IMG/VR virus record: IMGVR_UViG_3300044710_000031
Coordinates: 1 to 32,602 of that record
Source of the DNA: a virus
Length of the DNA stretch: 32,602 nt
Reading direction: 5' to 3' (one strand)
Shown: positions 3,994-31,410 of the stretch, piece by piece
Numbering within the stretch: position 1 is the stretch's first letter
Layout of the letters: each line of letters starts with the position of its first letter
The notes under the pieces: generated by a model
Database searches by the model: none
What the model saw: the letters and a program-made list of their open reading frames with translations, nothing else
What the model was told of the DNA's origin: nothing
Position numbers and translations under genes: made by a program

Positions 3994-4404
3994 ATGGCTC
4001 GCCCCAACTGGGAGTACATCAAGGTCGACGTGCTGCTCACTGAGCACCCGAAGACCGACGAGCTGTCCGACAAGGCGTTCCGGACGCTCATGGAGCTGTG
4101 GTGCTGGTGCGGACTCAATCACACCGACGGGTTCGTCCGCGAGGCCAAGTGGAAGACGTTCGGCACCAAGGCGGCGCGCGACCAGCTGCTGCGTGTGCCG
4201 CCCGGCTACAAGACCGGGTTTGCCGAGCGCGTCGACGGCGCCTACCTGATGCATGACTTCATCGGTCCGGACGGTCACCAGCGGTCGAAGCAGGAGATCG
4301 ACGAGCTGTCGCTGAAGCGCGCCGAGGCTGGCCGCAAGGGGGGAAGCAAACGGAAAGCAAATGCTCAAGCAGGTGCTCAGGCAAGCGGTCAAGCAAGTGC
4401 TTAG
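3994..4404 (+). CDS. Replication initiator-like protein, N-terminal domain only
   Basis: A 136-residue protein. The ATG at 3994 is preceded by GGAAGAGGGAG, which is better than the ATG at 3928 (which would add a Pro/Ala-rich leader). 'WEYIKVDVLLTEHPKTDELSDKAFRTLMELWCWCG' to 'HTDGFV' has the form of the winged-helix N-terminal domain of phage replisome organisers, and 'RAEAGRKGGSKRKANA' is the basic linker that usually follows it. In full-length relatives a C-terminal domain comes next; here the frame stops at TAG 4402-4404 inside a repeat array. Coding-like sequence recurs downstream in other frames (see findings), so this may be a shortened or decaying initiator. It lies directly beside a candidate origin, as expected for an origin-binding protein. 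Origin binding is inferred. Confidence 0.65.
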   Translation: MARPNWEYIKVDVLLTEHPKTDELSDKAFRTLMELWCWCGLNHTDGFVREAKWKTFGTKAARDQLLRVPPGYKTGFAERVDGAYLMHDFIGPDGHQRSKQEIDELSLKRAEAGRKGGSKRKANAQAGAQASGQASA

Positions 4405-4414
4405 CAAGTGCTTG
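4344..4414 (+). repeat. Iteron cluster A (12-bp tandem repeats)
   Basis: Consecutive copies at 4355-4366, 4367-4378, 4379-4390, 4391-4402 and 4403-4414, with a degenerate 11-bp copy at 4344-4354. The approximate consensus is AAGCAARYGCTC (AAGCAAATGCTC, AAGCAGGTGCTC, AGGCAAGCGGTC, AAGCAAGTGCTT). They overlap the last codons of the initiator-like gene. Spacing near one helical turn and location beside a replication gene suggest initiator-binding iterons. A plain Gln/Ala-rich linker repeat is the alternative. Confidence 0.65.
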
Positions 4415-4561: not shown

Positions 4562-4617
4562 TAGCAAACGCTCAAGCACTTGCTCAAGCAAACGCCAAGC
4601 AAAAATCAAGCAGAGGC
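4562..4617 (+). repeat. Iteron cluster B
   Basis: Copies at 4562-4573 (TAGCAAACGCTC), 4574-4585 (AAGCACTTGCTC), 4586-4596 (AAGCAAACGCC), 4597-4607 (AAGCAAAAATC) and 4608-4617 (AAGCAGAGGC), related to cluster A. CAAGCACTTG here (4573-4582) is the exact reverse complement of CAAGTGCTTG in cluster A (4405-4414), so the clusters contain inverted as well as direct copies. Confidence 0.6.
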
Positions 4618-6712: not shown

Positions 6713-6864
6713 ACGCCCGCGGTCATCTCATCGGGACGGCGATCATCCTGGCCGCTGCTCTCGTCGCCGCCGTCGTCATCGTCCGCGCCGCCCACGTGCC
6801 GCCTCCGCCGCCGTCGCACCGCTGCCCGTGCGCCGTGCCGTACGCCACGCCGAGCGCGCCATGA
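6709..6864 (+). CDS. Small single-pass membrane protein
   Basis: A 51-residue ORF from GTG 6709. Residues 7-27 (HLIGTAIILAAALVAAVVIV) form a clear transmembrane helix, followed by a Pro-rich segment with two Cys (PPPPPSHRCPCAVPYATP). The N terminus is short and basic, so the C terminus is probably outside. The function is unknown; small membrane proteins in early regions may modify the host envelope. It is coupled to the methyltransferase by ATGA at 6861-6864. Confidence 0.55.
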   Translation: MNARGHLIGTAIILAAALVAAVVIVRAAHVPPPPPSHRCPCAVPYATPSAP

Positions 6865-7698
6865 GCGTGGTCATCCTGCGCGGGGACGCCGCGCACCTGC
6901 CGCTGCCGGACGCGAGCGTGGATTCGGTCGTCTGTGATCCGCCGTACGGGCTTGAGTTCATGGGCCGCGAGTGGGACACGTTCAGGCCGTCCGGCGCACG
7001 GACCAATCCCGCCGAGGGGAGGTCGCTCACGCGGACACCCGAGGCGTACATCGCGGGCGCGACCTTCGGTGACTGCCGCTGGCCGGCGAACATCCTGCTG
7101 AGCCACACCCCCGAATGCGAGATGACCGGGACGCGGAAAGTGCGGGGGATCACGCAAGGATCCCGGCGCGGCGGGGGGCGCACCACAAAGAGCGATTACG
7201 GGATGCGCGACCAGGACCGCGACAGCGGCTACGCCGACGCGGACGGCATGGAGACCGTCGAGGCGTGGTCGTGTTCCGATTCATGCCCGGTAGCCGAGCT
7301 GGACCGGCAGAGCGGCGTCCGCCCGGCGGGCGGTTCCGCGCACGGCATACACCAGCAGTCGGGGAACCGTGCCGGGATCATGGGCGACAAGGTTGCCCGG
7401 GTACGCGACTTCGACTCTTACGGCGATACCGGAGGCGCAAGCCGATTCTTCCCGGCCTTCCGCTACCAGGCGAAGGCCTCGGCATCCGAGCGGCCCCGCC
7501 TTGAGGATGGCACGGCGTGGCCGACCGTCAAGCCCGTTGAGCTGATGCGCTGGCTCGTCCGGCTCGTGACACCGCCCGGCGGCACGGTCCTCGATCCGTT
7601 CTGCGGAACCGGCCCCACCGGTAGCCCTGGCACTCACCCGCGTCCGGCTGGCCAAGCCCATGCAGCCGGGCCTGTTCAGCGAGATGGAGTCCGCATGA
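6861..7698 (+). pseudogene. DNA methyltransferase (amino-group), disrupted near the C terminus
   Basis: Residues 1-30 hold motif IV (SVDSVVCDPPYG, DPPY at 26-29), the N4-cytosine/N6-adenine amino-methyltransferase signature. Near residue 245 comes the SAM-binding motif 'LDPFCGTGPTG'. After that the frame becomes nonsense, while frame +1 resumes with 'VALALTRVRLAKPMQPGLFSEMESA' and ends at TGA 7696-7698, exactly overlapping the next ATG. The roughly 20 residues expected between these parts, which include the motif II acidic residue contacting SAM, are missing. So about 60 nt plus a frame change have been lost near 7620, and the enzyme is probably inactive. The unshifted frame happens to stay open into the next gene (to 7994). 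The intact homologue would be orphan or modification-type. Confidence 0.8.
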
Positions 7699-7994
7699 GC
7701 ACCGCGACGGAGTTCTTCGACCAGTTCACCGGCCCGCCGGACGCGCCGAAAGGCAGCCCGTGGTGTGCCCGTCACTGGGCACCGGCGTCGCTGGTGGGCT
7801 GCAACGGGAAGGGCGCGAGCCTGGACCTGGGGCGGATCTTCGCCGCCACGCTGCTGCCGGCGTGGGCGCGGTCGCCGGGTGCCCGCAGGCGGGAGCTGGC
7901 CAAGCAGAGCCCGGTGTGCTGCAAGCTCGGCGACGAGCGCATCTATCAGCTGTGGGGGCGCTGGCCTCCGCCGAAACCACCCGAGGAGGACTGA
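7695..7994 (+). CDS. Hypothetical Cys-rich protein
   Basis: A 99-residue protein from ATG 7695, overlapping the methyltransferase stop (ATGA). It has four Cys (WCARHW, GCNGKGAS, VCCKLGDERIY) that could bind a metal. Residues 40-60 (LDLGRIFAATLLPAWARSPGARRRELAKQ) are helical and basic. 'GSPWCARHWAPASL..CNGKGAS' looks like a small zinc-binding unit common in actinophage accessory genes, but no function is known. A tiny ORF of 13 codons (ATG 7997 to TGA 8038) lies between it and the next gene. Confidence 0.65.
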   Translation: MSTATEFFDQFTGPPDAPKGSPWCARHWAPASLVGCNGKGASLDLGRIFAATLLPAWARSPGARRRELAKQSPVCCKLGDERIYQLWGRWPPPKPPEED

Positions 7995-8030: not shown

Positions 8031-8522
8031 ATGACTGACTTCGAGCTGCGCGTGCTGGCGCGCCAGGTGATTGACGAGGATTCGTCGGAGGATTTCGGGC
8101 AGATCCTGAAGGAGCTGCGCCGCCGCATTCCTGATGATCTTGTCGGTGAGGCGCTGGATCAGGCGCTTGTCCCGTTCATGCATGACATGATCCGCAAGCC
8201 GGGGCTGCGCCGGCCGCCTGCCGAGACGCCGGCGCCGGGCGACAAGGGCCGTGCGCGCTCGCCGAAGCTGGCGGGTATCCGGGAGGCGTGGCGGCGGTCG
8301 CTGGACGCGATCCGGTACACGGTGGCGGATGGGAGCGTGCGCCGTATCGGTGACATGTCGCGTGATGACGTGATTTTCGTGGCGTCGCAGCTTGAGGAGC
8401 TGGCGGCGCAGAATGAGGCGAAGGCGGCGCTGATGCGACGTCTCGCCGCCGCGATGGATGACGGCAGCGCGGCGCGGGTCCGCGATCTTCCCGACGAGAC
8501 GCTTCGGGAGTGGTTCGCGTGA
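8031..8522 (+). CDS. Hypothetical helical protein
   Basis: A 163-residue protein. The ATG at 8031 is preceded by AGAGGAAG. Helical throughout: 'FELRVLARQVIDEDSSEDFGQILKELRRRIPDDLVGEALDQALVPFMHDMIR' and 'SRDDVIFVASQLEELAAQNEAKAALMRRLAAAMDD', with a Pro-rich hinge at 62-75. The second half resembles a short coiled-coil module found in actinophage proteins near Tnp/HhH genes. Its end overlaps the start of the next ORF (GTGA at 8519-8522) and a possible extra stem-loop at 8476-8525. Role unknown. Confidence 0.7.
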   Translation: MTDFELRVLARQVIDEDSSEDFGQILKELRRRIPDDLVGEALDQALVPFMHDMIRKPGLRRPPAETPAPGDKGRARSPKLAGIREAWRRSLDAIRYTVADGSVRRIGDMSRDDVIFVASQLEELAAQNEAKAALMRRLAAAMDDGSAARVRDLPDETLREWFA

Positions 8523-9577
8523 CCCTCGCAGACCCCCGGACGGCCAAGTGCGCCCCGGCAACCATGGCAGCTCCGCCGTCCGGGTCAGACCCCCTCAGCG
8601 GCCAGGGCAATTTCGGCACCCAGAAAGGGCACGCCGCTGAGGGCAAGAATTCCCCGCAGGCCAATCTTGAGTCGACACCCAGGCTGCAAGCGCCTGCGGG
8701 GAGCAAGACCAGCCGCAGCCACGCTGTGAGCGATCCCCATGCTGGATCCGCTGCGGCTGATGACTTCCCCGGCGGCCACACTTCGAGCGGTGCCCAAACC
8801 ACCTGCGCCGCCGGGGAGCAAGATCCGCCAGCTCAGCCCACGGGAGCATCGATCCCCATAGCCGTACCGCCTGAGCTGGCGGAGCACGATGCGTGGCTCG
8901 CGTTCGCCGCAGACATCCTCGACGACCTCGAGCACGTCCGCATCGCCAACGAGAACCGGCTCCGAACCCTCACCAGCCACGACGACGACGGATTCGGCCT
9001 CGACGAGACACACCCCGACGTCGCCCGCCTCGCCGCCCTCGTCGCCATGCTCGCCGACGCCGAGCACAAAGCCGAACTCACCCTCGGACGCCACATGCGC
9101 ACCCACCCCCTCAACCCGTGGATCAAGGGCGTCAAGGGCATCGGCGAGAAGCAAGGCGCCCGCCTCCTCGCCGCCATCGGCGACCCCTATTGGAACACCG
9201 CCGCAGACCAGCCCCGCCGCGTCTCCGACCTGTGGTCCTACTGCGGCTACGGCGACGCAGCCACCCAGGTCCGCAAGCGCGGCCAGAAAGCCAACTGGAA
9301 CGCCACCGCCAAGATGCGTGCATTCCTCGTCGCCGAATCCTGCATGAAAATCCGCGACAGCCCCTACCGCGCCATTTACGACGCCGCCCGCGACCGCTAC
9401 AAGGACGCCATTCACATAAAGGAATGCGTCCGCTGCGGACCGAAGAACCATCCCGCACTGCCCGGAACACCGCTCTCAGACGGCCACAGGCACGCCCGCG
9501 CGCTCCGGGCTGTCGCCAAGGAAATCCTGCGCGACCTCTGGCGAGCATCGCGCGATCTCGCAGCCAGGGAGGGCTGA
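8519..9577 (+). CDS. Stand-alone IS110-type Tnp/helix-hairpin-helix protein
   Basis: The open frame is 352 codons from GTG 8519. Residues from about 120 match the C-terminal half of IS110/IS116/IS902-type transposases: a helical arm (ADILDDLEHVRIANENRLRTL), a helix-hairpin-helix near residues 201-225 (WIKGVKGIGEKQGARLLAAIG), then 'VSDLWSYCGYG', 'RKRGQKANWNATAKMRAFL' and a CVRC pair near residue 302. The N-terminal DEDD RuvC-like nuclease domain of IS110 enzymes is absent, and I could not place the catalytic serine, so it is probably a domesticated RNA/DNA-binding protein and not an active recombinase. Codons 6-122 coincide with the six-hairpin array; no in-frame ATG/GTG lies just after the array, so the true start is uncertain and the leader may be translated structured RNA. 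Confidence 0.75.
   Translation: MTLADPRTAKCAPATMAAPPSGSDPLSGQGNFGTQKGHAAEGKNSPQANLESTPRLQAPAGSKTSRSHAVSDPHAGSAAADDFPGGHTSSGAQTTCAAGEQDPPAQPTGASIPIAVPPELAEHDAWLAFAADILDDLEHVRIANENRLRTLTSHDDDGFGLDETHPDVARLAALVAMLADAEHKAELTLGRHMRTHPLNPWIKGVKGIGEKQGARLLAAIGDPYWNTAADQPRRVSDLWSYCGYGDAATQVRKRGQKANWNATAKMRAFLVAESCMKIRDSPYRAIYDAARDRYKDAIHIKECVRCGPKNHPALPGTPLSDGHRHARALRAVAKEILRDLWRASRDLAAREG
8535..8584 (+). ncRNA. Array stem-loop 1
   Basis: Arms CCCGGACGG (8535-8543) and CCGTCCGGG (8576-8584), 32-nt loop. The loop core is CGGCAACCA at 8556-8564. Preceded by the linker GCAGACC (8528-8534). Confidence 0.75.
8592..8643 (+). ncRNA. Array stem-loop 2
   Basis: Arms CCCTCAGCGGC (8592-8602) and GCCGCTGAGGG (8633-8643), 30-nt loop. 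The loop core CGGCACCCA starts at 8614 and is flanked by TTTC (8611-8614) and GAAA (8623-8626), which can pair as an inner stem. Confidence 0.85.
8651..8702 (+). ncRNA. Array stem-loop 3
   Basis: Arms TCCCCGCAGGC (8651-8661) and GCCTGCGGGGA (8692-8702), 30-nt loop. The core CGACACCCA starts at 8673; CTTG (8666-8669) and CAAG (8687-8690) can pair inside the loop. Confidence 0.85.
8710..8759 (+). ncRNA. Array stem-loop 4
   Basis: Arms CAGCCGCAGC (8710-8719) and GCTGCGGCTG (8750-8759), 30-nt loop. The core CGATCCCCA starts at 8731; GATCC (8732-8736) and GGATC (8744-8748) can form an inner hairpin. Confidence 0.85.
8766..8817 (+). ncRNA. Array stem-loop 5
   Basis: Arms TCCCCGGCGGC (8766-8776) and GCCGCCGGGGA (8807-8817), 30-nt loop. 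The core CGGTGCCCA starts at 8788; GGTG (8789-8792) and CACC (8800-8803) can form an inner hairpin with a 7-nt loop. Confidence 0.85.
8824..8883 (+). ncRNA. Array stem-loop 6
   Basis: The longest stem: TCCGCCAGCTCAG (8824-8836) pairs with CTGAGCTGGCGGA (8871-8883), 34-nt loop. The core CGATCCCCA starts at 8850; ACGG (8840-8843) and CCGT (8862-8865) can pair inside the loop. This unit abuts the conserved Tnp/HhH coding part. Confidence 0.85.
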
Positions 9578-9579
9578 CC

Positions 9580-10083
9580 ATGGCCAGGATGCCGAACTTC
9601 GAAGCCGAGATCGCCCGCGACCTCGCGCGTGCCAGCAGCGGCGTCGAGCATGTTCTCGGCCACCTACACCACCACCACGCCGCGCAAGCGGCCACCCCGA
9701 CGCCGGCCGCCGGGCCGGTTACCGTAAAAGCAGCACCCAACCTGGAGGAACGCATCATGTCCCTGCTTGACACCATCACCGGCGATGTCCGCGCCGACCT
9801 CACCGACGGACTGGACTACGCCGAAGGGCTGCTCGGCCGCCTCAAGGCCGTCGCCCCGTCGGTCATCGAGACCGCTGACAAGCTCGGCGGCACCACCGTC
9901 GGGAAGCTTGTCGACGCCGCCGCCGGCATGGTGCTGCCTGCCCCGTACGAGGATGTCGCGGTCAGCTTCATCAAGGACCTCGTGTCCAAGTACGGGCAGC
10001 AGCCCCTCGCCGCCCCTGCGGCTCCCGTGGTCGCGACCCCGGACGCGACTCCGGCCGCGCCGGCCGTCCAGCCCGTCCAGTAG
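9580..10083 (+). CDS. Hypothetical protein with possible internal start
   Basis: A 167-residue protein from ATG 9580, with AGGGAGGG just upstream. The first 58 residues include 'VEHVLGHLHHHHAAQAA', a His-rich run. From residue 60 on, 'MSLLDTITGDVRADLTDGLDYAEGLLGRLKAVAPSVIETADKLGGTTVGKLVDAAAGMVLP' is helical, ending in an Ala/Pro/Val-rich tail. The internal ATG at 9757 carries a stronger ribosome site (GGAGGAA at 9744-9750, 6-nt spacing), so a shorter 108-residue product may be the main or a second product. Not recognised; a strong terminator-like hairpin follows. Confidence 0.65.
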   Translation: MARMPNFEAEIARDLARASSGVEHVLGHLHHHHAAQAATPTPAAGPVTVKAAPNLEERIMSLLDTITGDVRADLTDGLDYAEGLLGRLKAVAPSVIETADKLGGTTVGKLVDAAAGMVLPAPYEDVAVSFIKDLVSKYGQQPLAAPAAPVVATPDATPAAPAVQPVQ

Positions 10084-10085
10084 AC

Positions 10086-10126
10086 GTGAGCGCCAGGGCG
10101 AGCAGGCGCGCCGCCCTGGCGCTCAC
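10086..10126 (+). terminator. Strong stem-loop, probable intrinsic terminator
   Basis: GTGAGCGCCAGGGCG (10086-10100) pairs perfectly with CGCCCTGGCGCTCAC (10112-10126), a 15-bp stem with an 11-nt loop, starting two bases after the upstream stop codon. No U-run follows, as is usual for actinobacterial I-shaped terminators. Confidence 0.75.
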
Positions 10127-28924: not shown

Positions 28925-31410
28925 TGGGTGCCGACAACTACGTCCGCCTGTCCATCCGGGCAGACGACACCGCCAAGCCGGACCTCACCGAGCTCAAGGC
29001 GAAACTCGACGAGCTGAAGAACCAGATCGCCACGGCCCGCGCCAACGTGGATAGCGCCGACGCCGACGCCAAGCTCACCGACCTGGACGCGAAGCTGGAG
29101 GCCATCTCCAAGAAGGTTGCCTCGCCGCGGATCGACATGGCGGGCGCATCTAAGGCGCTGGCGCAGCTCACCGCCGTCGAGGCCGCCATGAACCACCTGG
29201 ACGACAAGTCGCAGGATGACGGCAAGAAGGCGGGCACGGCGTTCAGCGACGGGTTCGGCTCCGGTCTGGGCGACCTGTCGAGCAAGCTGGGCGGTTCCGG
29301 TCTCGGCCAGAAAGCGGCCGACGCCGGGGCGCAGGACGGCGGGTTCTTCCATAACAGTTTCGTGACGACGGTGCTGGGCGGCCTGGCGGGGACGCTGGTC
29401 ACCGGTGTCTCGTCGGCGCTGGCCGTGCTGCCCGCCCTCGGCGCGGTCGCCGGTGTCGGCATGGTCGGCGCCCTCGGCGCGGTCGTGGCCAGCAAGATCC
29501 CGGGCGTCGCGGCGGAGTTCTCCAAGTTCGGCTCGCAGGTAATGGGCACCCTGGAGACGGCGGTCAAGCCGCTGGTTCCGTTCATCACCTCGGCCCTGAA
29601 GCAGCTCAGCTCGTTTGTCTCGCAGATCGAGCCGCTGCTGTCGGGCATGTTTAAGACGGTCGGCCCGATGCTCCAGCCGCTGATCTACGGGCTGGAAGGG
29701 CTCGTCGGCGGCCTGCTGCCCGGACTCACCGCGATCCTCAAGGCGGCGATGCCCGCCATGCAGGCATTCGCGGGCATCCTCGGCGGCCTCGGAACCAGCC
29801 TCGGCGGCCTGTTTTCCGCCATGGCCCCGGCGGTCGCCGCCAGCGCGACGGCGCTGAAGGCGCTGTTCTCCATCCTCGGCGGCCTGCTGCCGGTCATCGG
29901 GCAGATCGCCGGGACGATGGCGCACCTGCTCGCCCCGATCCTGTCAACCGTCGCCAGCCTGTTCACGCAGATGGGGCCGGTGATCTCCGGGATAGCGACG
30001 ATCTTCGGGCAGTTCGCGAAGGCGTTCCTCATCAACCTGGCAGGCGGCATGGAAGCAGTCGTCGGGCTCGTCCGGGCACTCACGCCCGCCTTCCATACCC
30101 TTGCCGTGGTCCTCGGCCAGGTCTTCAACCTGATGAACAACCGCGGGGTGTTCAACGACATCGAGGATGCGATCGAGGGGCTGGTCGGCCCGATCGGGAA
30201 GCTGATCACCGCCCTGGTGTCCGGGCTGGCGCCGGTCATCCCGCCGCTGATCAACGTCCTCGGGTCGCTGGCCGGGATCCTGCAGAGCTCACTGGTGTCC
30301 GCAGTGACAGCCCTGGCTCCCATCCTGGAGCATGCCGTCACACTGGTGGCGCTACTGCTGGCGGGACTGCTGCCGCTGCTGCCCGCCGTCACGAAGATCG
30401 CCGGGGCGCTGATGGGCGGCCTGGTGCAGGCCCTGCAGGAGATGCTGCCTGCGATTAACGGGCTGCTGACCGCCCTGATGCCGCTCGTGCCGGTTATCAC
30501 CAAGGTGGCCGTGATCCTCGCGGACCTGCTCGCCGCCGGGCTGTCGGCCGTCATGCCGCTGCTGGCGCGGCTGGCGCCGTTCATCCTCGTGATCGTCGCC
30601 GCGGTCAAGGCGTGGTCGATCGCGCAGGCCATCCTCGACGTGGCACTGAACGCCAACCCGATCGGCGCGATCATCCTCGGGATCGTCGCCCTGATCGGCG
30701 TCGTCGTGGAGATCGTCAAGCACTGGTCCGACCTGGAAAAGGCGGCGAAGATCGCGTTCACCGCGGTGAAAAATGCGGTCGCCGACGCGCTCGACTGGAT
30801 CCGGGGCCACTGGCCGCTGCTGCTGGGGATCTTGACGGGGCCGATCGGCCTCGCAGAGGCGCTCATCGCCATGCACTGGCGGCAGATCCTCTCCGGCGCC
30901 GAGTCGATGGTCCACGGCGTCACGTCGTGGTTCGAGAATCTCGGCACCGACATCATCGCCATCGTCGACCATCTGGCGAGCGACCTGTTCAGCGCGGGTG
31001 CGCGGATCATCTCTTACCTGGCGCACGGCATCACGTCGGCGGCCGGGGATGTGACGGGCGCGATTGGCGGCGTGATCAACGAGGTCAAGAGCTACCTGCC
31101 GTTCAGCCCGGCGAAAAAGGGCCCGCTGTCGGGTGCCGGGGCGCCGCAGAACTCGGGCCGCAGCATCGCCCGCCAGATCGCGCAGGGCCTCACCGGCGGC
31201 GTATCGGATGTGTCCGCGGCGATGGAGCGGGTGACGGGCGCGATCGGCGCCGGGGGCCGCGGCGGCTACGGCGGCGGGGCGGCCGGCGGCGCGCAGGTGC
31301 TCATCATCCGCCTGGAGGGCAACGGCGATCCGTTCATCCGTGCATTGAGGAACTACATCCGGGTCAAGGGCGGCAACGTCCAGCAGGTCCTCGGACAGGG
31401 AGCAGGCTGA
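28924..31410 (+). CDS. Tape measure protein
   Basis: An 828-residue protein from GTG 28924, overlapping the chaperone stop by one base. The N-terminal 90 residues form a coiled coil ('LTELKAKLDELKNQIATARANVDSADADAKLTDLDAKLEAISKK'). Long hydrophobic and Gly/Ala/Leu helices follow (about 140-640), including several 'LLPVIGQIAGTMAHLLAPIL'-like amphipathic repeats and likely membrane segments around 150-190 and 545-600. The C terminus ends in 'SYLPFSPAKKGPLSGAGA', a well-known tape measure element. It sets tail length and probably helps DNA cross the host membrane. The size suggests a tail of roughly 120 nm by the usual 0.15 nm per residue rule. Confidence 0.96.
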   Translation: MGADNYVRLSIRADDTAKPDLTELKAKLDELKNQIATARANVDSADADAKLTDLDAKLEAISKKVASPRIDMAGASKALAQLTAVEAAMNHLDDKSQDDGKKAGTAFSDGFGSGLGDLSSKLGGSGLGQKAADAGAQDGGFFHNSFVTTVLGGLAGTLVTGVSSALAVLPALGAVAGVGMVGALGAVVASKIPGVAAEFSKFGSQVMGTLETAVKPLVPFITSALKQLSSFVSQIEPLLSGMFKTVGPMLQPLIYGLEGLVGGLLPGLTAILKAAMPAMQAFAGILGGLGTSLGGLFSAMAPAVAASATALKALFSILGGLLPVIGQIAGTMAHLLAPILSTVASLFTQMGPVISGIATIFGQFAKAFLINLAGGMEAVVGLVRALTPAFHTLAVVLGQVFNLMNNRGVFNDIEDAIEGLVGPIGKLITALVSGLAPVIPPLINVLGSLAGILQSSLVSAVTALAPILEHAVTLVALLLAGLLPLLPAVTKIAGALMGGLVQALQEMLPAINGLLTALMPLVPVITKVAVILADLLAAGLSAVMPLLARLAPFILVIVAAVKAWSIAQAILDVALNANPIGAIILGIVALIGVVVEIVKHWSDLEKAAKIAFTAVKNAVADALDWIRGHWPLLLGILTGPIGLAEALIAMHWRQILSGAESMVHGVTSWFENLGTDIIAIVDHLASDLFSAGARIISYLAHGITSAAGDVTGAIGGVINEVKSYLPFSPAKKGPLSGAGAPQNSGRSIARQIAQGLTGGVSDVSAAMERVTGAIGAGGRGGYGGGAAGGAQVLIIRLEGNGDPFIRALRNYIRVKGGNVQQVLGQGAG

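Follow-up and report, generated by a model that had tools for sequence, protein, structure and literature searches.

The closest described counterparts of the locus analysed here are the TIGR-Tas systems (Faure et al. 2025, PMC12045711). Each unit of a TIGR array contains two spacers of 8–12 nucleotides (nt), bordered by box C (CCA) and box D motifs. According to that paper, variable palindromic edges replace the edge repeats in the stem-loop TIGR subtype, one stem-loop TasA array has been shown to be processed into single-hairpin RNAs, and the solo Nop protein is argued to be ancestral to IS110 and not derived from it. The window studied here is the whole 32,602 nt stretch of the viral record IMGVR_UViG_3300044710_000031, and its locus of interest, the gene tasA with six guide hairpins inside its coding sequence, very probably represents a TIGR-TasA system of the stem-loop subtype, carried by a tailed phage of actinobacteria. 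The first-pass annotation of this DNA had proposed a domesticated, bridge-RNA-like IS110 system; its broader idea of a phage module that joins an IS110-related protein to several RNA guides agrees with all the evidence described below, but the label itself does not.

Searches with phmmer using the 235 residues that follow the array recovered TIGR-TasR (PDB 9mty) with an expect value (E) of 2e-18 and TasH (21kl) with an E of 1.5e-10, and a 49-member profile gave 4.6e-35 for TasR and 3.3e-23 for TasH, with only 0.18 for IS621. In addition, the tblastn matches included Salicola phage CGphi29 (E 2e-7), the source of the SpTasH protein studied in the TIGR paper (PMC12045711). The AlphaFold2 model of the Tas domain, with a predicted local distance difference test (pLDDT) value of 96, matched TasR 9mty with a template modelling (TM) score of 0.72 and TasH with 0.69–0.78, whereas the IS621 and ISCro4 recombinases matched more weakly (0.54–0.57), so that the comparison with IS621 suggested in the first-pass annotation turned out in favour of the Tas proteins. 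The match to Nop5, taken from the box C/D small nucleolar ribonucleoproteins, was weak (E 0.8–3.8). The model comprised the Nop/Tnp-like half only, and the RuvC-like DEDD domain was absent from the open reading frame (ORF), as had been noted beforehand together with the exact limits of the gene. Inspection of the ORF revealed nothing but array-encoded sequence N-terminal to the domain and no nuclease domain, as in the nuclease-free TasA subtype, and no Pfam family matched the protein. Because TasR and TasH match far better than IS110 both by sequence and by fold, the protein is, on its sequence and predicted structure, a member of the Tas family and not a domesticated IS110 enzyme with a bridge RNA.

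It is thus very unlikely that the locus is a remnant or domesticated IS110 element with a bridge-RNA-like guide, whose truncated recombinase would still take part in recombination or recruit another recombinase. The Nop/Tnp fold held in common with IS621, the PHROG assignment of the product (PHROG_4285, "transposase", E 2.8e-97) and the split-spacer logic that IS110 and TIGR guides have in common (PMC12045711) would all agree with such an origin. However, in addition to the better matches to TasR and TasH and the missing RuvC-like domain, Ser was absent from all the columns conserved at 90% or more among 49 homologues, leaving no counterpart of the IS110 catalytic Ser, and the homologous loci carried from 1 to 16 independent single hairpins instead of one two-loop RNA. 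Each of these units is a single dual-spacer box C/D guide, and the bridge-RNA comparison therefore came close in logic but pointed to the wrong family.

Along each of the six units of the window, the order from 5' to 3' was a stem of 10–14 base pairs (bp), CCA, a 9-nt spacer A, a 9-nt CG....CCA loop, a 9-nt spacer B, CG, and the returning stem (Table 1). Folding of the 391-nt array stretch gave a z-score of −5.4 against dinucleotide shuffles, and over the whole window a detector requiring the motif plus a stem found seven units on the + strand, of which six make up the array, and one on the − strand, compared with 0–2 units (mean 0.15) in 20 shuffled windows. The structured array with variable flanks around a fixed core that had been described from the letters is consequently well founded. 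Its position was only partly foreseen: the array does overlap the gene, but it is not immediately upstream, as all six hairpins lie within the open frame. An isolated unit-like match at 29810–29862, within the tape-measure gene, was judged to be due to chance. No Rfam family matched anywhere in the window. The box C/D dual-spacer anatomy, taken together with the match of the protein to TasR and TasH, therefore identifies the locus as a probable TIGR-TasA system. A Shine–Dalgarno-like GGGAG is located at 8506–8510, eight bases 5' of the GTG start of tasA.

Table 1. Coordinates of the predicted tasA gene, its guide array and its partner gene in the window.
Feature	Position	Strand	Description
Conserved partner gene	8031..8522	+	163 amino acids, PHROG_4604; translationally coupled to tasA
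GTGA overlap	8519..8522	+	tasA start codon and partner stop codon (TGA 8520-8522)
tasA	8519..9577	+	GTG start; about 120 N-terminal amino acids encoded by the array, followed by the Tas (Nop/Tnp-like) domain
Stem-loop TIGR array, six units	8534..8883	+	Wholly within the tasA reading frame
Unit 1	8535..8584	+	Spacers AGTGCGCCC / TGGCAGCTC
Unit 2	8592..8643	+	Spacers GGGCAATTT / GAAAGGGCA
Unit 3	8650..8703	+	Spacers ATCTTGAGT / GGCTGCAAG
Unit 4	8708..8761	+	Spacers CGCTGTGAG / TGCTGGATC
Unit 5	8765..8818	+	Spacers CACTTCGAG / AACCACCTG
Unit 6	8824..8883	+	Spacers CGGGAGCAT / TAGCCGTAC
Tas/Nop conserved domain	8888..9562	+	Residues 7-231 of the 235-residue query 8870-9574

Homologues were collected from IMG/VR, GTDB and GenBank phages and reduced to 81 non-redundant loci, in which units were counted within 3 kb of tas with a detector requiring the CCA and CG boxes in both edge and loop and a stem of at least 7 bp. 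At least one unit was present at 76 of the 81 loci and at least two at 69, with 374 units on the tas strand and nine on the opposite one; 6.6 were expected by chance. The density of units reached 0.74 per kb within those 3 kb and 0.03 per kb beyond, a difference of about 27-fold. The first-pass annotation had set this survey beforehand as a refuting test, naming homologues that commonly lack the array as the outcome that would count against a joint system, and the association came through it. Stems of the detected units measured 7–22 bp, and the spacers were 9 nt long on each side in 364 of the 374 units (97%), within the 8–12 nt described for TIGR arrays next to tas. The spacers held only 0.01–0.15 bit of information per position, against fixed boxes, which the detector demands of every unit. 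A weak composition pattern was observed in both spacers of 322 units (position 1 A/T-rich, positions 3 and 6 G/C-rich); it is not just a reflection of codon bias, since it also appears in units outside the reading frame, and it may relate to target or seed preference.

Because the main detector presupposes a stem, a scan was also run with the core motif alone. It returned 409 matches on the tas strand and 11 on the opposite strand, with four expected, and stems of at least 6 bp flanked 350 of the 409 and none of the 11. In 50 of these core-only units, the covariation score was 0.779, compared with 0.167 in shuffles and at most 0.168 with slid partners, and eight of nine stem pairs changed on both sides. 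The edges, in units picked with no regard to stems, are thus variable and consistently palindromic, as in the stem-loop subtype, and they are not the constant short edge repeat of the dual-repeat subtype.

These data also bear on the possibility that the hairpins are regulatory or structural elements of DNA or RNA, such as attenuators, repressor operators or packaging sites, with no guide function. Strong hairpins located between or within coupled genes could be read in that way, and so could their place in the early region near the immunity repressor in cluster A1 mycobacteriophages. Nevertheless, the exact dual-spacer geometry, the 374:9 strand bias, the hypervariable spacers on a conserved scaffold, and the use of such RNAs by relatives of the accompanying Tas protein leave this explanation with hardly any probability.

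Hairpins were found within the tas open frame in 216 of the 374 units (58%), and 37 units from 27 loci fell within the conserved domain, where the protein aligned well on either side of the hairpin. These domain-internal units must be translated, as conserved protein flanks them on both sides; 31 of them mapped to a single loop bounded by residues 126/127 and 135 in the numbering of the window protein, four near residues 160–168, one at 106–108, and one had no clear placement. In the model, the insertion sites correspond to loops predicted between helices. Among the 48 loci with N-terminal in-frame units, 41 showed a start codon overlapping the stop of the upstream ORF just 5' of the first hairpin, and 12 of these 41, the window included, had no start codon at all between array and domain; coupled starts were also chosen by the GenBank submitters of three Gordonia phages. 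The in-frame units were distributed over the three phases as 126, 87 and 3, so that two phases are used almost exclusively, a bias that is partly produced by the open-frame requirement and is taken as support, not as proof. Two further observations were made in this context: seven guide hairpins also lie within the reading frame of the partner gene (e.g., L026, 1621–1736), and in Nocardia suismassiliense (L118, 6001–7872) the Tas domain is split at the conserved Cys of its YCG motif by an intein-like insertion several hundred residues long, beside a guide hairpin that also lies within the domain.

Such extensive translation could also mean that selection acts on the repeats as protein, namely as a repetitive and disordered linker at the N-terminus that contains D-T-Q/H motifs, as the loop CGACACCCA often reads, and that the hairpins are a by-product of coding. 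This we consider most improbable: the 158 units outside the tas frame have the identical RNA anatomy, the two reading phases encode different peptides, and the stems covary base by base around fixed 9-nt spacers. Guides nested in the reading frame of their effector, even within its domain, are a layout that we did not find described; in the main text of the TIGR paper (PMC12045711), arrays lie on either side of tas, and an overlap with coding regions goes unmentioned.

Comparison of 12 cluster A1 phages revealed differences of 58% in spacers, 9% in stems and 2.7% in the tas genes, and the alignment showed scaffolds retained and spacers replaced. This turnover fits guides directed against moving targets. 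In the prophage locus L117 (5735–5987), spacer A AAGCTGAAT was combined with two different B spacers and spacer B CAGCTGTCC with two A spacers, and in L087 (5596–5944), GACCTGCAC appeared three times within the array. These recombined halves suggest, at the level of sequence, an exchange between hairpins.

Several results weigh against a nested TIGR-TasA guide system. No array was found at five of the 81 homologous loci, at least one of which is a fragment. In cluster A1 mycobacteriophages, three to five detected units form an intergenic leader between the partner gene and tas; thus, nesting is common but not required. For the target search, the order expected of a target (spacer A followed by the reverse complement of B at a gap of 0–2) was derived from the 8-nt 3' overhang and the cut rule given in the TIGR paper (PMC12045711). 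With this order, 434 spacer pairs gave 147 near matches in 2.3 Mb of phage DNA, compared with 192 for reversed geometry and 173 for shuffled pairs, and matches in the own genome were no better than those in other genomes. Exact scans of IMG/VR hit three, six and seven contigs with three A1 units and two, seven and two contigs with three window units, all at chance level. Finally, no exact match was obtained for one A1 unit in 297 Mycobacterium genomes or for two L117 units in their own host and one other Mycobacterium. The comparison of variable loop parts with phage and host genomes that had been proposed at the outset consequently returned nothing above control or chance level in the phage and mycobacterial DNA covered.

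Three apparent signals were set aside in these searches. The excess of reversed geometry in the own genomes came mostly from the array matching its own stem, and the few close matches were either the array or one site explained by chance. The six-contig set from IMG/VR corresponded to one locus at a start codon and was judged to be chance. Window unit 4 (A, 2 nt, reverse complement of B) exactly matched a conserved portal-protein site in seven homologous contigs of lambda-type phages (L203–L209), which was also attributed to chance because these phages look unrelated to the window phage.

The same guide system could have another role, with spacers aiming TasA at the host chromosome or at the own phage genome, for gene control or as an aid to integration, and not at rival phages. 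We regard this as a real possibility, although the less favoured one. The system is carried by some prophages of bacteria and by some phages that have an immunity repressor, and assistance to integrases has been suggested for TasA (PMC12045711); on the other hand, neither exact nor near targets appeared in the own genomes, nor in the mycobacterial genomes tried with three units, and very fast spacer turnover suits a moving target better.

The partner gene was identified by an iterated profile search 5' of tas in 60 of the 71 loci with a readable upstream ORF and, by tblastn with the A1 copy as query, in 76 GenBank phage records; in A1 phages, partner and tas occur nearly one-to-one. Its model (pLDDT 90) consists of two predicted helical parts and a linker, with no convincing match in a PDB fold search and no Pfam family match. 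A partner of the ParB type, like the tasParB of the TIGR paper, was considered and discarded, as the protein matched no ParB family. According to that paper (PMC12045711), TIGR systems generally consist of one protein, sometimes accompanied by a ParB-like gene, and a conserved coupled partner of tas is a feature that we did not find described in its main text.

Under the preferred reading of a TIGR-TasA system, a single transcript would carry the partner gene and tasA, with the six guide hairpins within the tasA coding sequence. Tas dimers would recognise boxes C (CCA) and D (CG), which are paired both at the top of the stem and in the apical loop. By analogy with characterised relatives, an RNase would trim the hairpins, each yielding a guide with two spacers of 9 nt, and the resulting ribonucleoprotein would pair with an 18-bp site, spacer A on one strand and spacer B on the opposite one. 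There, it may bend the DNA and block or mark the site, presumably without cutting, as no nuclease domain is present, and such binding might serve in competition with other phages. Ribosomes would read the same RNA to give Tas with a disordered N-terminal stretch, each transcript ending either as message or as guide precursor, and binding of Tas to its own message could make the system self-limiting. On balance, we favour that the tas messenger is coding sequence and guide precursor at once, with guides even in loops of the RNA-binding domain of the effector, that guide production consumes the message and so limits the system, and that the conserved partner takes part.

Elsewhere in the window, a perfect 15-bp inverted repeat with an 11-nt loop (10086–10126) lies just 3' of a gene ending at 10083 and resembles a terminator. 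Degenerate 12-nt tandem repeats are present at 4355–4412 and 4563–4603, and the near-identical contig IMGVR_UViG_3300044982_000040 shows three differences from the window, two of them (4429 and 4441) beside the first of these repeats. The reading frame of a DNA methylase ORF at 6861–7991 (N6_N4_Mtase, E 7e-12) stays open into the following gene, and its usual C-terminal end appears to be missing, possibly through a frameshift.

Most of what is known of TIGR-Tas systems comes from metagenomes, and the TIGR paper lists their targets and the turnover of their spacers as open questions (PMC12045711). Because about 75 sequenced and easily grown Mycobacterium smegmatis phages carry a stem-loop TIGR-TasA, with a conserved scaffold around hypervariable spacers, the targets of the guides, their renewal and the biological role of the system are open to genetic study. 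If true, guides nested in the frame of their effector and accompanied by a conserved partner gene would represent a new way of organising an RNA-guided system. Guides within the effector gene, as in tas, are not known from any other RNA-guided system.

The nearest known system is the TIGR-TasA of a Peromyscus leucopus gut contig (PMC12045711, Fig. 7), which is also based on a solo Nop-domain protein and shares with the window the tandem hairpins, the variable palindromic stems and several units per array. As depicted there, the P. leucopus array consists of subarrays split by an intergenic region, whereas the six units of the window are inside the tasA frame, and those of its relatives also inside the domain. 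In addition, the window tasA is preceded by the conserved coupled partner PHROG_4604, and its spacers are fixed at 9 nt, with mostly 9-nt CG....CCA loops. TasR and TasH (PDB 9mty, 21kl, 9w04) have a homologous domain, CCA as box C and the same pair of boxes in edge and loop, and TasR also has 9-nt spacers; in contrast to them, the window protein lacks the RuvC or HNH nuclease, its box D is CG instead of UG, and its edges are long variable stems and not a fixed short repeat. More distantly, IS110/IS621 with its bridge RNA (PDB 8wt6, 8wt9) shares with the window a related Nop/Tnp fold and a split guide read against both strands, but the window system has neither the RuvC-like DEDD domain nor the pair of donor and target loops, and shows no layout of a mobile element.
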